NCBI GenBank assembly: GCA_002838945.1 | Contig: PGXB01000028.1 | Span: forward strand, 1 to 47,199 | DNA: 47,199 nucleotides | Reading direction: 5' to 3' | Source of the DNA: a candidate division Zixibacteria bacterium HGW-Zixibacteria-1 | GTDB lineage: Bacteria; Zixibacteria; MSB-5A5; GN15; PGXB01 | In this document: positions 22,518-44,225 of the stretch, piece by piece | How the letters are laid out: each line of letters begins with the position of its first letter | How positions within the stretch are numbered: position 1 is the first letter of the stretch | Translations under genes and position numbers: made by a program | Notes under the pieces: generated by a model | The model's input: only the letters and a program-made list of their open reading frames with translations | What the model was told of the DNA's origin: nothing | Database searches by the model: none

Positions 22518-23441
22518 TCATTCCAGGTGGCGCCGGTCGAGAATGTGCTGGTCCAGCAGTGCCACCAGTTGATCCCGCGAGTAATTGTGCCGGGGATTGT
22601 CGTTTTCATCAAGCAACTTGGCCAGCAATTCATTGAGCACCCGGTCGCCCTCCCATTTGGTGCCGACCAGGTACCGAGTCTTCGGCCGCTCCGAAAACAG
22701 CGCCTCATATACAGCGATTGCGACAATCTCCGGCGAAGATGGTTTCCGTACTGTTTCTGATTCCTCTTCATCAGACTCCTGAGAGGGTTCCTGTTCAAAG
22801 CCGGCCAGGACCAGCTCCGCTTCTTCGGTGAAGGGAGCCGTAGCGCGTTTAAAACGTGCGATCGTAGCGGGCATCGAATTGGCACCGATATTGGAGATAA
22901 TCCCCCCCGGCTGAACAATGCTTGCCTGCACTCCGTACTGATTCAGTTCGAAGTTCAGAGTAGTAGTATACGCTTCCAGTGCATGTTTGGTCATGGTGTA
23001 CGGGCCGTAATACTTGTAGGTAATCACGCCGCCCTGAGAGCCGATATTGACGATCCTTCCTTTTGACTCAAGCAGCAGCGGAAGAAAGGCATTGGTCATG
23101 CGATATGGGCCAAAGACATTGACATTAAAAATATTTAATACCTCCTCATCGGTCCAGGAGGGAATCATCCCGAGTTCCCCCAGGCCGGCATTATTCACCA
23201 GGCCGTACAACCCCGTACCGCGGCCGGAAATGAAAGTGAAGGCCTGCCGGATTTGCTCCGCGTTTCTGACATCGAGCTCGATCGGAACGACATTCTCAAT
23301 CTTTCCCAGCGCCGCCAGGTCGTCCTCTTTGCGGGCGGTACCATAAACAAGGTGCCCTTGCGCGGCCAGATATTTGACCAGGTGGTTGCCGATACCGGTG
23401 CTGGCACCGGTTACCAAAACCGGGTGATTCAAATCTGTCAT
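22518..23441 (-). CDS. Short-chain dehydrogenase/reductase (SDR)
   Basis: A 307-residue classical SDR using NAD(P)H. From the ATG at 23441, which has GGAAG 7 bases upstream, residues 11-18 are TGASTGIG (cofactor), 83-86 NNAG, and the catalytic residues are S135 (IGSQGG), Y148 and K152 (YTMTK). The upstream in-frame ATG at 23498 adds 19 residues without family similarity and is rejected. The C-terminus (about residue 215 on) has an acidic insert (QEPSQESDEEESE) not typical of the family. Substrate unknown. It is separated from the next gene upstream by about 320 bases. Confidence 0.92.
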   Translation of the reverse strand: MTDLNHPVLVTGASTGIGNHLVKYLAAQGHLVYGTARKEDDLAALGKIENVVPIELDVRNAEQIRQAFTFISGRGTGLYGLVNNAGLGELGMIPSWTDEEVLNIFNVNVFGPYRMTNAFLPLLLESKGRIVNIGSQGGVITYKYYGPYTMTKHALEAYTTTLNFELNQYGVQASIVQPGGIISNIGANSMPATIARFKRATAPFTEEAELVLAGFEQEPSQESDEEESETVRKPSSPEIVAIAVYEALFSERPKTRYLVGTKWEGDRVLNELLAKLLDENDNPRHNYSRDQLVALLDQHILDRRHLE

Positions 23442-33581: not shown

Positions 33582-36500
33582 TTACGGGCAGTTTGGCTCT
33601 GGACCACCTTTGTATAAATAGCCTATAAGATAGGTTACATCCAGAATGTTAACCGTTCCGCTGGAGTTGACATCTGCTGCTTCAATTGGGTCAGGCGAGG
33701 GGCCACCCTTATAAAGATAGGAAATCAGATATGTAACATCGAGGATGTTGACTGTCTTTGAGCCGTTGACATCGCCACAGATATAATCAAAATAGCCAAC
33801 CACAAATGGCGACAGTGATTCTGATGTTCCGCAGATAGTATTTGATGCGGTATCGGCGGAGGCAGTAATATCTGCCCAATCCGTGCCATCATAATGAATC
33901 AGTCGCAGCATGTTTTCCTGACTTGGAGACATTCCAGCATCATCATAATCAACGCATACTTCAATCAGGCCGGAATACCCTGCCGTTGTCGTGATGTTGT
34001 AGTAGATGGGAAGGTCTGCGGGAATAATCTGCAAACCTGATACGCCGGGTCCAGTGTAAGACATAGTCATCTCCGTCGTGCCGGCAGTTAAGACATCGCC
34101 AAATGTCAAGTCGACAGACAATCCGAGAGGCACAATTACGTTGGTGCCCTCCGGCGTTTCCCCCGCAAAAGTACAATCACCGCCCTGGTCCGGATTGTAA
34201 ATCCAGGGGCAGTTATCACCCGTGCATGCATTTTCCGGATATCCCGGATCGCCAAAACCGTCGCCATCGGTATCGACACAAGCAAGGTTCTTGTGGATGT
34301 TTACCGATCGGTCGACATACGCTTGCGAACAGACTACCGCTAAATCCAAATCACCGTCGTTGTCATGATCGGATAGCACCATGGAAGTCGGATTGACCTG
34401 GGTGATGACCCATGTAAATCCCTGAAAGCTGAAGCCGCCGAGGTTACTAAAGGGGCCGAAGTCACCATGCACATAAGATGGCGAACCGAAGGTGGCTATC
34501 AAATCGACATCTCCATCGCCATCAATATCACCGGCGGCCGTACTGGTAGCCCAGGCGTTTATAGCGAGAGATGTGTTCAGTGCAAACTGCCTGTCTCCAA
34601 GCCCCTCATAGAACGTGAGCATAGCGTCACGACCACCGGACATACCATGACTTCCCAGCTCAAATGCAACAATATCAACATCAGAGTCGCCATCAAAATC
34701 CGCAACTTCTACGTCGCCCACATACGGACTGGCCAAATCCAGGTATGTCGGGAACAAACCATGATCATTATTGAAGAATACTGTAAAGTATGCCCCTCCA
34801 TTTGATGTTGCTAAATCAAAATACCCGTCTCCGTCAATATCTGCTGTCCATAGTCCGATAATATCAGTCCATTCGTGAACCGGAAGGGGACCGGGCGAAT
34901 GAAATGTGGCATCTCCGTAATTAAAGAGAATGACAACCTGACCCTGGTCATGTGGATAGGGGGTTTCTATATATGATCGCAGCGCGACCGCCAAATCAGC
35001 ATGACCATCGGCGTCGAAATCAGCCGTGCAGATTCCACGCGCGTTGCCGGTTCCGTATGAAAATGATGGCTGAACCGTGAATATCCCGCCGCCATCGTTC
35101 AGCATTAACGAAATATAATTATCATATGAACCGGTTGTTTGAAATATCGCAATATCTATATCGCCATCGCCGTCGTAGTCGGCAACAGCCAATCCGGCGC
35201 ACCCGGGAGCAGCAGATACCTGATAAAGCACATAAGGTGCAAAACCGCCCGTCGTATTATTCATCATTACCGATACAATAGTTCCGCTTGCCTGAACCAG
35301 ATCAGCGTAACCGTCGCCATTGAAATCAGCAGTTGCGATGGCGCCTTCCGCCGTACCGGAAGGGATTGTGGTTGCGGAGGAAAAAAATCCGGTACTGCCA
35401 CTGACCGCTGCAGTAAAGGACCAGGTATAGCCCTGCGCAAGCGGCACGCCCGCTGCCGATTCAATGCCGATAGTCAGAACAACCGTTACCTTTTCACCTG
35501 CCGGATACGGGATATCTGGTGTAAAGATCGCTGTGTTGCCGGTGCAAGTAATATTTCCCTCCACCCTGCCAGCTGTGTTTCCCGTCACAACAAATGTATT
35601 GGCGTTGATTGTGGACGGATTCATATCCATGTCAAAGGTTGCCGTGATCGTACTAGTGCGAGGGACATTGAGCTCGTTTGGGATGGGCGACTGTGTAGCT
35701 ACATGGGAAGGCACCTCCACTTTGGTCCACTTGGCAAGATATGCTGCAACTTTATTTCCTGCGATTGTGAAATCACCACTTACAAGGAGCGTGTCATTAT
35801 GAGCCATGAGAGAGAATACCTCGCCATCTGTTCCCGAGCCTAACGACGACCATGTGTTTCCGTTCCATGAGGCAATGCAATCATTTGTCGTAGCGTTAGC
35901 GGTGGCAAAGATTCCCCCGATAAAAAGCTTGTTGTTACAGGCAACCATTGCACGAACTTCGTCGGTACTGGATAAACCACCCCATGTTCCCACAGATGAC
36001 CAAGTTGTGCCATCCCATGAGGCCAACTTCTCCACGCCAATGCCTCCCGCCGTGTAAAAGTAACCTCCTGTTATCAGAAGGTTATTGTAAACTGTTAGTG
36101 CAAGCACGGTCTGATCTAATCCGGTGCCTAATGGTGACCAGACTGTGCCGTCCCAAGAAGCGATGCGATTGGCCGTTACACCACCTGCGTTCACGAAATT
36201 GCCTGCGGCAATAAGCACTTGGCCATATACGGTTAGTGCATAAACATTGCCATCCATTCCAGATCCGAGCGGCGTCCAAGCGGAGCCGTTCCAAGAGGCT
36301 ATTCTATTCGCGCTAACGCCGTCTGCCGTAGTAAATACCCCTCCAGCTATCAATTTACCATCGTAAACGGTGAGGGCATACACGATGCTACTCATTCCAG
36401 TCCCAAGTGGTGTCCAAGCAGAGCCGTTCCAAGAGGCTATTCTATACACATTGACGCCGCCTGCTGACGAAAACGAACCACCAGCTATCAATTTTCCTGC

Positions 36501-37274
36501 GTAAACAGTGAGAGCGTAGACGTTATTACTCATTCCTGATCCAAGCGGCGACCAACTGTTTCCATTCCAAGGCGCTATGTGGTTCGCTGTCACGTTACCT
36601 GCTGTAGTGAACTCGCCCCCTGCTATTAGCTTGTTGTCAAACAGGGTTAGGGCTCTCACCACGTAATTAGTCCCTGAACCCAGCGTAGTCCATGTTGTAC
36701 CGTTCCATGAAGCTATCGCGTGCATCATATTCGGAAGACTTCCCCCCGCAATCAGCTTGTTGTCATATACGGCGACGGCAAAGACATATCCAGTGCTAAA
36801 TCCCAATCCCAATGGGGACCATGTTGTGCCATCCCATGAGGCTATTTTTTTTGCGTTCACGCCCCCGGCAGTTGTAAACCATCCCGCGGCTATCAGCCTA
36901 TTGTTGAATATTGTGAGGGAATAGGCATCGGAACCCAACCCCAACCCCAACGGCGACCAAGCCGTGCCATCCCAAGAAGCTATATTATTAGCGGGTACTC
37001 CGCCAGCAATGGTGAACCGTCCTCCGGCGATCAGCATGTTATTATAAATAGTGAAGCACTGTACACCATCATTCATCCCAGATCCCAATGATGACCATGA
37101 TGCACCATCCCATGAGGCTAAATAATTAGCCGTTACCCCACCTGCAACGGTGAACCATCCTCCAGCAATTAGTCTATTATTATGAACGATCAAAGCATCA
37201 ACACTACTATTCATTCCCGAACCCAGCGTTGACCACGTGCTGCCATTCCAAGAAGCTATCCAGTTTGCGCTCAC
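33582..37274 (-). CDS. Giant secreted propeller / FG-GAP / dockerin-like protein, main part after the frameshift
   Basis: The 1230-residue frame begins at an internal GTG; the same frame is open upstream to the G tract at 37426-37432, where it should join the 37364-37945 segment. Order: about a dozen 40-44-residue repeats (LIAGG.F..AGGV.AN.IASWDG..WS.LGSGM, to about residue 540); a Big_5/SbsA Ig-like domain (about 545-645); FG-GAP/VCBS repeats with DYDGDGDIDI loops (about 650-1010); a DTDGDGFGDP thrombospondin-3-like calcium segment; a beta domain; and two C-terminal dockerin-like repeats (GDVNGSKTVNILDVTYLISY and a second copy). Probably surface displayed and calcium bound. If the frameshift is real, this part lacks a signal peptide. 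Confidence 0.85.
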   Translation of the reverse strand: MSANWIASWNGSTWSTLGSGMNSSVDALIVHNNRLIAGGWFTVAGGVTANYLASWDGASWSSLGSGMNDGVQCFTIYNNMLIAGGRFTIAGGVPANNIASWDGTAWSPLGLGLGSDAYSLTIFNNRLIAAGWFTTAGGVNAKKIASWDGTTWSPLGLGFSTGYVFAVAVYDNKLIAGGSLPNMMHAIASWNGTTWTTLGSGTNYVVRALTLFDNKLIAGGEFTTAGNVTANHIAPWNGNSWSPLGSGMSNNVYALTVYAGKLIAGGSFSSAGGVNVYRIASWNGSAWTPLGTGMSSIVYALTVYDGKLIAGGVFTTADGVSANRIASWNGSAWTPLGSGMDGNVYALTVYGQVLIAAGNFVNAGGVTANRIASWDGTVWSPLGTGLDQTVLALTVYNNLLITGGYFYTAGGIGVEKLASWDGTTWSSVGTWGGLSSTDEVRAMVACNNKLFIGGIFATANATTNDCIASWNGNTWSSLGSGTDGEVFSLMAHNDTLLVSGDFTIAGNKVAAYLAKWTKVEVPSHVATQSPIPNELNVPRTSTITATFDMDMNPSTINANTFVVTGNTAGRVEGNITCTGNTAIFTPDIPYPAGEKVTVVLTIGIESAAGVPLAQGYTWSFTAAVSGSTGFFSSATTIPSGTAEGAIATADFNGDGYADLVQASGTIVSVMMNNTTGGFAPYVLYQVSAAPGCAGLAVADYDGDGDIDIAIFQTTGSYDNYISLMLNDGGGIFTVQPSFSYGTGNARGICTADFDADGHADLAVALRSYIETPYPHDQGQVVILFNYGDATFHSPGPLPVHEWTDIIGLWTADIDGDGYFDLATSNGGAYFTVFFNNDHGLFPTYLDLASPYVGDVEVADFDGDSDVDIVAFELGSHGMSGGRDAMLTFYEGLGDRQFALNTSLAINAWATSTAAGDIDGDGDVDLIATFGSPSYVHGDFGPFSNLGGFSFQGFTWVITQVNPTSMVLSDHDNDGDLDLAVVCSQAYVDRSVNIHKNLACVDTDGDGFGDPGYPENACTGDNCPWIYNPDQGGDCTFAGETPEGTNVIVPLGLSVDLTFGDVLTAGTTEMTMSYTGPGVSGLQIIPADLPIYYNITTTAGYSGLIEVCVDYDDAGMSPSQENMLRLIHYDGTDWADITASADTASNTICGTSESLSPFVVGYFDYICGDVNGSKTVNILDVTYLISYLYKGGPSPDPIEAADVNSSGTVNILDVTYLIGYLYKGGPEPNCP

Positions 37275-37363
37275 GCCGCCTGCAGTTGAGAATCTACCCC
37301 CCGCTATGAGTTTATTTTCATAAACTGCGAGAGCAAAAACGCAAGGGTTGTCACCACTTTCAT

Positions 37364-37945
37364 TTATTCCCGATCCAAGCGGTGACCAGGTAAGGCCGTC
37401 CCAGGCGGCGATGTGATTGGCTGAACCCCCCCTACCATGGTGAAGCTTCCACCAGCGATTAGCATGTTGTCATATACCGTGAGAGCATAGACACTTTTAT
37501 TCATGCCCGAACCGAGGGTCGACCACGTTGTACCGTTCCATGACGCTATGTTGCTAACGATAACAGAACCCGCGACGGTCAAAAAACCCGCGATAATAAT
37601 CGAACCGTTGTAAATAGCCATTGCTTGCACCTGATCCTCAACTCCGGGTATCGATGGCGAAGTATTGTTGTCCCAATAAATATCGTCGGGGTCATCGGCT
37701 GGAGAAGCAGGGTGGAACAACGGCTGACCTGTGGCCGGGTCAATGGCCGATTCGAAACCCTCCATATCCAACGAGCCCTGATAGCCCGACTGCCGGGCCG
37801 CTTCCAAATCAAACTGACCATCGGCGGTAAGGAAAGTCCCGACACTCGGCATCTTATCCGATTTTGTCTCTCCCGAAGCAAAACAGGAAAATGCCGATAT
37901 TATGATTAAAGCTGTTGTGAAATAGATAGCATTCCTGATCATCAA
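37364..37945 (-). CDS. N-terminal part of the giant propeller protein, up to the frameshift
   Basis: A 193-residue frame: signal peptide (residues 1-24, ending CFASG), a short linker, then two propeller repeats (NIASWNGTTWSTLGSGMNKS, LIAGGSFTMVGG). After GSFTMVGG it continues in the wrong frame (VQPITSPPGTALPGHRLDRE) and stops at 37364. In the other frame the sequence continues smoothly as SANHIAAWDGLTWSPLGSGI and so on into the 1230-residue part. The switch is exactly at seven G residues (minus strand); eight would restore one gene of about 1450 codons (33582-37945). Confidence 0.85.
   Translation of the reverse strand: MMIRNAIYFTTALIIISAFSCFASGETKSDKMPSVGTFLTADGQFDLEAARQSGYQGSLDMEGFESAIDPATGQPLFHPASPADDPDDIYWDNNTSPSIPGVEDQVQAMAIYNGSIIIAGFLTVAGSVIVSNIASWNGTTWSTLGSGMNKSVYALTVYDNMLIAGGSFTMVGGVQPITSPPGTALPGHRLDRE
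37426..37432. repeat. Homopolymeric G/C tract at the frameshift
   Basis: Seven C on the plus strand (G7 on the coding strand). One more base would join the signal-peptide part and the main part of the giant surface protein in frame. This may be a phase-variable tract, a true mutation or a base-calling error. Confidence 0.8.
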
Positions 37946-43124: not shown

Positions 43125-44225
43125 ATGCAAGTCTTGAGGTACACTGTTTTCGCGGCTGTATTTCTCGTGGCAATTTTATTCACACTCGCTGTCAGTTGTT
43201 CAGACGATGACAAATCGGTTACGCCCACTCGTCAATGGGGTTGGGCCCCTCTCGGGGAGGGGATGGATAGCATTTGCGAGGTTGATGCAATAATAAACTA
43301 TAACGGCAATCTGATAGCCGGTGGATATTATGATAGCGCCGGCGGCAAAGTCGTCAATAATATTGCCGCCTGGAACGGCTCATCCTGGGCGTCATTGGGT
43401 TCCGGGTTGGACGATGGTGCCAGTGCTCTCACAATCTATGATAACAAATTGATCGCCGGCGGCTGGTTCCGGAATGCCGGTGGGACATCGGCCAATTATA
43501 TCGCCGCCTGGAATGGTTCCTCCTGGTCGGCCCTTGGAGCCGGTATGAATAATGCGGTTTGGGCCCTCACCGTCTTTAACGGTAAACTTATTGCGGCAGG
43601 GCAGTTCACGAATGCAGGCGGTGTCGGCGCAAACTATATTGCGGCCTGGGACGGAACTTCATGGTCGCCGCTGGGATCAGGGCTGGGCGCGGCGGCTCAT
43701 AGTCTGACAGTATGGGGAGGCATATTGGTCGTCGGCGGCTGGTTCCAATCCGCGGGAGGAGTCACGGCGCATTGTGTTGCCGCCTGGACCGGATCACAGT
43801 GGGCTCCCTTGGGCTCAGGGATGTCCGACGGGACCAATCTCGGTGTGTATGCTCTGACAAGTTATTTCGATACACTTGTTGCCGGAGGGAATTTCCGGCT
43901 GGCGGACGGCGGCACCGTCAATCATATTGCCAGGTCCGGTATTACAAGCTGGCAGCCTCTGTCATCGGGAATGAGCGGGCCGGTTCATGCCCTCACCGTA
44001 TTTAACGATAAGCTGGTCGCCGGTGGTGAATTTGTTGTGGCCGGCGCTGTCGGCGCCAATCATGTGGCGGTCTGGAATGGCTCCGCATGGGAGCCGCTTG
44101 GTGCCGGAGTCAATGGTTACGTATTCGAACTTGGTGTCTATAATAACCAGCTTATCGCCTCGGGATGGTTTACGGAAGCCGGTGGACAAAAAGCCAGTCA
44201 TATTGCGTCCTGGGGCTATCGCTGA
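43125..44225 (+). CDS. Lipoprotein made of propeller-type LIAGG repeats
   Basis: A 366-residue lipoprotein (lipobox LAVSC, cysteine 25). A strong AAGGAGGT site precedes the ATG. The rest is seven or eight repeats of about 43 residues with the pattern W..LGSG(M/L)...V.ALTVY..KLIAGG.F..AGG..ANYIAAW(N/D)GSSW, the same unit as in the giant protein at 33.6-37.9 kb. The repeats resemble Kelch/RAX2-like beta-propeller blades, and the number fits one closed propeller. It has no dockerin or FG-GAP part. Probably anchored to the outer membrane; function unknown. Confidence 0.85.
   Translation: MQVLRYTVFAAVFLVAILFTLAVSCSDDDKSVTPTRQWGWAPLGEGMDSICEVDAIINYNGNLIAGGYYDSAGGKVVNNIAAWNGSSWASLGSGLDDGASALTIYDNKLIAGGWFRNAGGTSANYIAAWNGSSWSALGAGMNNAVWALTVFNGKLIAAGQFTNAGGVGANYIAAWDGTSWSPLGSGLGAAAHSLTVWGGILVVGGWFQSAGGVTAHCVAAWTGSQWAPLGSGMSDGTNLGVYALTSYFDTLVAGGNFRLADGGTVNHIARSGITSWQPLSSGMSGPVHALTVFNDKLVAGGEFVVAGAVGANHVAVWNGSAWEPLGAGVNGYVFELGVYNNQLIASGWFTEAGGQKASHIASWGYR

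Follow-up and report, generated by a model that had tools for sequence, protein, structure and literature searches.

A frame break near a short G run in a Zixibacteria repeat-dockerin gene and the avoidance of long G runs in its repeat family

The repeat-dockerin gene and its relatives

The stretch of DNA analyzed here (the window; 47,199 nucleotides) is the whole of contig C28 of a 3.8-Mb draft genome in 82 contigs, which comes from an uncultured bacterium of Zixibacteria type. On its minus strand lies a gene for a large repeat protein whose reading frame is broken (Table 1). As the earlier note had described, the three-frame translations show the signal peptide and the first repeats in one frame and the rest of the protein in another, the -1 frame. 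The single protein of about 1450 residues anticipated from joining the two was borne out, with 1453 residues computed. The boundaries of the two open frames were corrected in part. The upstream frame ends where it had been placed, but its proposed start at 37945 is a TTG codon, and the ATG three bases further on is the likelier start. Likewise, the end of the second frame at 33582 was retained, while its opening lies at about 37469 and not at 37426.

Table 1. Features of the frame-broken gene in the window
Feature	Coordinates	Strand	Basis or content
Frame-broken gene for a modular, exported repeat protein (about 1453 residues when joined in one frame)	33582..37942	-	Three-frame translations; length; one-frame architecture in relatives
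Upstream open frame	37364..37942	-	Signal peptide, conserved N-terminal block (ADGQFDLEAARQSGYQGSLDMEGF...DDIYWDN), repeat 1, half of repeat 2; out of frame from there to the stop
Downstream open frame, remainder of the protein, without signal peptide	33582..37469	-	Reads as repeat protein from about 37427
Array of 14 repeats of about 46 residues each, Rax2/DUF5122-like, beta-propeller type	35727..37624	-	Pfam PF12768 and PF17164; repeat HMM (count with the split repeat 2 taken as one unit); break in repeat 2
G7 run coding for Gly-Gly of the AGGV motif in repeat 2	37426..37432	-	Sequence; other repeats of the gene use mixed Gly codons for the motif
Interval holding the one-base offset (G run or bases just 3')	37423..37432	-	Repeat alignment; family-wide residue counts
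Bacterial Ig-like domain (Big_5)	35412..35711	-	PF13205, residues 573-672 of the downstream frame
Dockerin type I domain, C-terminal	33615..33776	-	PF00404

With its N-terminal block, Rax2/DUF5122-like repeats and dockerin all present, the protein belongs to the Zixibacteria repeat-array dockerin surface proteins. FG-GAP repeats were also matched by Pfam in the downstream part. Among named sequences, the repeat protein is closest to those of Candidatus Zixiibacteriota MAGs. The N-terminal block has homologues in many relatives; in G001, the sole congeneric genome compared, no homologue of the N-terminal part was found. Among relatives, 14 is the commonest repeat number, followed by 7 and 8, and the array of the window gene probably forms two seven-bladed beta-propellers, which would fit these numbers.

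The Zixibacteria repeat-dockerin proteins of G033:C13 (1097 aa), G008:C1 (822 aa) and G020:C1 (1054 aa) likewise combine a signal peptide, a 14-repeat array and a dockerin-type C-terminus; each is encoded in a single continuous frame, whereas the frame of the window gene is split. Since relatives encode this architecture in one frame, the window gene is regarded as the broken version of a protein that is normally encoded without interruption, and a chance pairing of two open reading frames does not account for the break.

The same repeat family has a further, intact member in the window, a lipoprotein-like paralogue with eight repeats on the opposite strand at a distance of about 5 kb (43125-44225, plus strand). 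The whole genome (G000) holds about 109 dockerin type I matches and only two cohesin matches above the cut-off; for a Zixibacteria-type genome with so few cohesins, this dockerin repertoire is very large. Among the papers searched, none pairs Zixibacteria with dockerin.

Position of the frame break

The frame changes inside repeat 2, after residue 170 of 1453 and at or beside the G7 run, whose length and position agree with the earlier note. The two open frames overlap by about 106 nt, so that the repeat register alone places the switch near the run. In the upstream frame this register holds across the entire run and the Val codon behind it, which gives the customary motif V-G-G-V; directly afterwards, the repeat pattern resumes in the other frame. 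In 10 of the 13 other units of the gene, V or I stands at the position following the two glycines, where a changed run length would put Gly. Family-wide, V or I comes next in 183 of 297 units with GG, and G in 9.

Taken alone, the repeat register favors an offset just after the G run (37425-37423). Weighed together with the survey of frameshifts in the family given below, a slip in the G run appears to be the likelier origin. A change in run length would explain an offset within 37432-37423, but a position directly behind the run is also compatible with the register. The claim that the frames are joined exactly at the G7 run thus stands as to the neighborhood, while its exactness is uncertain, as the offset could equally lie at 37425-37423. 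Since the downstream frame is otherwise open over about 1280 codons, the change is considered recent.

Slippage and avoidance of G runs in the repeat family

A set of 62 repeat arrays (96.6 kb) from the genome of the window and its relatives was screened for internal frame changes and stops, which yielded four frameshifts and a single stop. Of the frameshifts, three are located at runs of at least seven G, which, extended by 2 nt on either side, make up 0.36% of the bases (P = 1.8e-7). With the window gene left out, the ratio was two of three (P = 3.9e-5). None of 124 G6 runs was associated with a frameshift, compared to one of 26 G7 runs (that of the window gene) and two of five runs of G8-9. 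Both independent cases, L096 (G083:C262) and L154 (G069:C4), are repeat-dockerin genes broken at G8 runs that carry one surplus G relative to the repeat register; the third broken array in relatives, L160 (G062:C105), is interrupted where no long run stands. Thus, frameshifts were concentrated at the runs and rose with run length, a pattern in which biological and sequencing slips are not separable: slips do occur at poly-G runs of repeat-array genes, whether during evolution or during sequencing. This hotspot status supports slippage at the window gene and, with it, the G run as the cause that had been suggested for the split.

A narrower count, of runs of at least seven G at the motif F-T-x-A/V-G-G in 132 genomes of the class, yielded eight matches, two of them in the repeat family (the window and G083) and both broken there; this small sample was replaced by the survey of 62 arrays. 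In G098, a sister species of G083, a contig end falls inside the array.

The tract of the window gene is of chance length. The window contains two G/C runs of at least seven bases, compared to 5.8 expected under a first-order model. In 422 kb of the genome, comprising the window and 20 stretches picked non-randomly around dockerin genes, 14 such runs were observed, compared to about 16.6 expected under a second-order model. Enrichment of long homopolymers was absent from this sample.

Within the repeat family, long runs are scarce. When synonymous codons were shuffled within 57 intact arrays from the same genome and relatives, 48.0 ± 6.0 runs of at least seven G were expected and 20 observed; for runs of at least eight G, 13.0 ± 3.2 were expected and two observed. 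For runs of at least six G, the observed number (126) was close to the expected one (130). The shuffle covered intact arrays only, and all 62 arrays together hold 31 runs of at least seven G, with which the deficit persists. Thus, the repeat family avoids slipping runs, the opposite of a contingency-locus family.

Origin of the broken frame and comparison with known loci

With modest confidence, the break is read as a real, recent and incidental loss-of-function slip and not as an evolved switch. On this reading, Gly-Gly coded as GGG GGG beside another G would have created the G7 run incidentally, and slipped-strand mispairing at the run would have led to the one-base offset in repeat 2. The assembled allele would encode about 190 residues with 1.5 repeats and presumably no function. 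Five repeat-array genes were found in the genome, two in the window and three in tandem on contig C22. The third of the tandem lipoprotein genes (L119:10002-11096, G000:C22) carries an in-frame TAG where neighboring repeats have Trp, and the two genes before it are intact. This second interrupted repeat gene favors real decay, as expected of dispensable paralogues. As a counterpoint, a downstream frame that is otherwise perfect would equally be expected from a reversible switch or from a simple error in the sequence. We lean towards a real slip, with an error in second place.

An error of assembly or consensus, with the gene intact in the organism, is a possible but less probable explanation of the break at the G run. 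The draft consists of many contigs and is probably a metagenome assembly, given that the closest named relatives are MAGs; apart from the break, both frames are fully open; and errors, too, favor homopolymers, so that the clustering at runs of at least seven G fits them as well. However, among about 155 homopolymers of at least seven bases in the 422 kb, the run of the window gene alone splits a gene, and the other G7 run of the window, which starts at 22902, lies inside an intact SDR gene, which argues against a general homopolymer-error problem. Three other homopolymer frame breaks flagged in the 422 kb turned out to be antisense frames or two distinct genes.

In a contingency locus, the tract is expected to be long by the standard of its genome and to be maintained by selection. 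The earlier note had proposed phase variation, i.e., that the G run is a contingency tract switching the surface protein reversibly on and off. The run is indeed slippage-prone and located early in a surface-protein gene, and poly-G runs of the family break frames repeatedly. Short tracts can vary: in bvgS of Bordetella pertussis, a tract as short as C6 does so (PMC1891110), and a screen in Neisseria used a tract cut-off of 6 (PMC5084427). However, the tract of the window gene has only seven bases, and G/C runs of at least seven bases are not in excess in the genome sample, unlike the C/G tracts of Bordetella, which exceed expectation at lengths over 8 (PMC1891110). Moreover, the repeat family avoids runs of at least seven G instead of keeping or enriching them. 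Phase variation of the window gene is thus unlikely and, as judged from its sequence context, not supported; the two alternatives that the earlier note itself had named, real mutation and assembly error, are likelier. Slightly more doubtful still is a broader idea, in which Zixibacteria would turn their large dockerin-bearing surface proteins on and off through slippage at poly-G runs of beta-propeller repeat genes; the run that switches could then arise in the Gly-Gly motif of any repeat and not at a fixed tract.

It is very improbable that some full-length protein is made by programmed -1 frameshifting of the ribosome or by transcriptional slippage at the run: tRNAs or the polymerase can slip on GGG GGG G, but 'A GGG GGG' is not the canonical X XXY YYZ heptamer, the RNA fold 3' of the run was no better than that of shuffles (z +0.81), and homologues are read in one unshifted frame without such a signal.

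The window gene is an ordinary case, and the small general result is the avoidance of G runs in Gly-Gly repeat genes. The comparison shows repeat genes rich in Gly-Gly to be prone to slippage and to avoid long G runs through their choice of codons, which is of modest importance. It also advises that phase variation should not be read from a G-run frame break in one draft genome without population data.

Among known systems, the window gene resembles Bordetella tcfA and bapC, Neisseria nalP and mspA and the surface genes of Campylobacter in that a homopolymer lies in a surface-protein gene and a one-base slip truncates the product. It differs from these contingency loci, as compared in one genome, by a tract of seven bases and chance length, the lack of genome-wide enrichment and the avoidance of long runs in its family. 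Listeria monocytogenes inlA likewise shows a frameshift in a short homopolymer and a truncated surface protein (PMC2831843). In inlA, however, the tract is a poly-A run at the very 5' end of the gene with measured high-frequency variation (PMC2831843), whereas the G run of the window gene follows codon 170.
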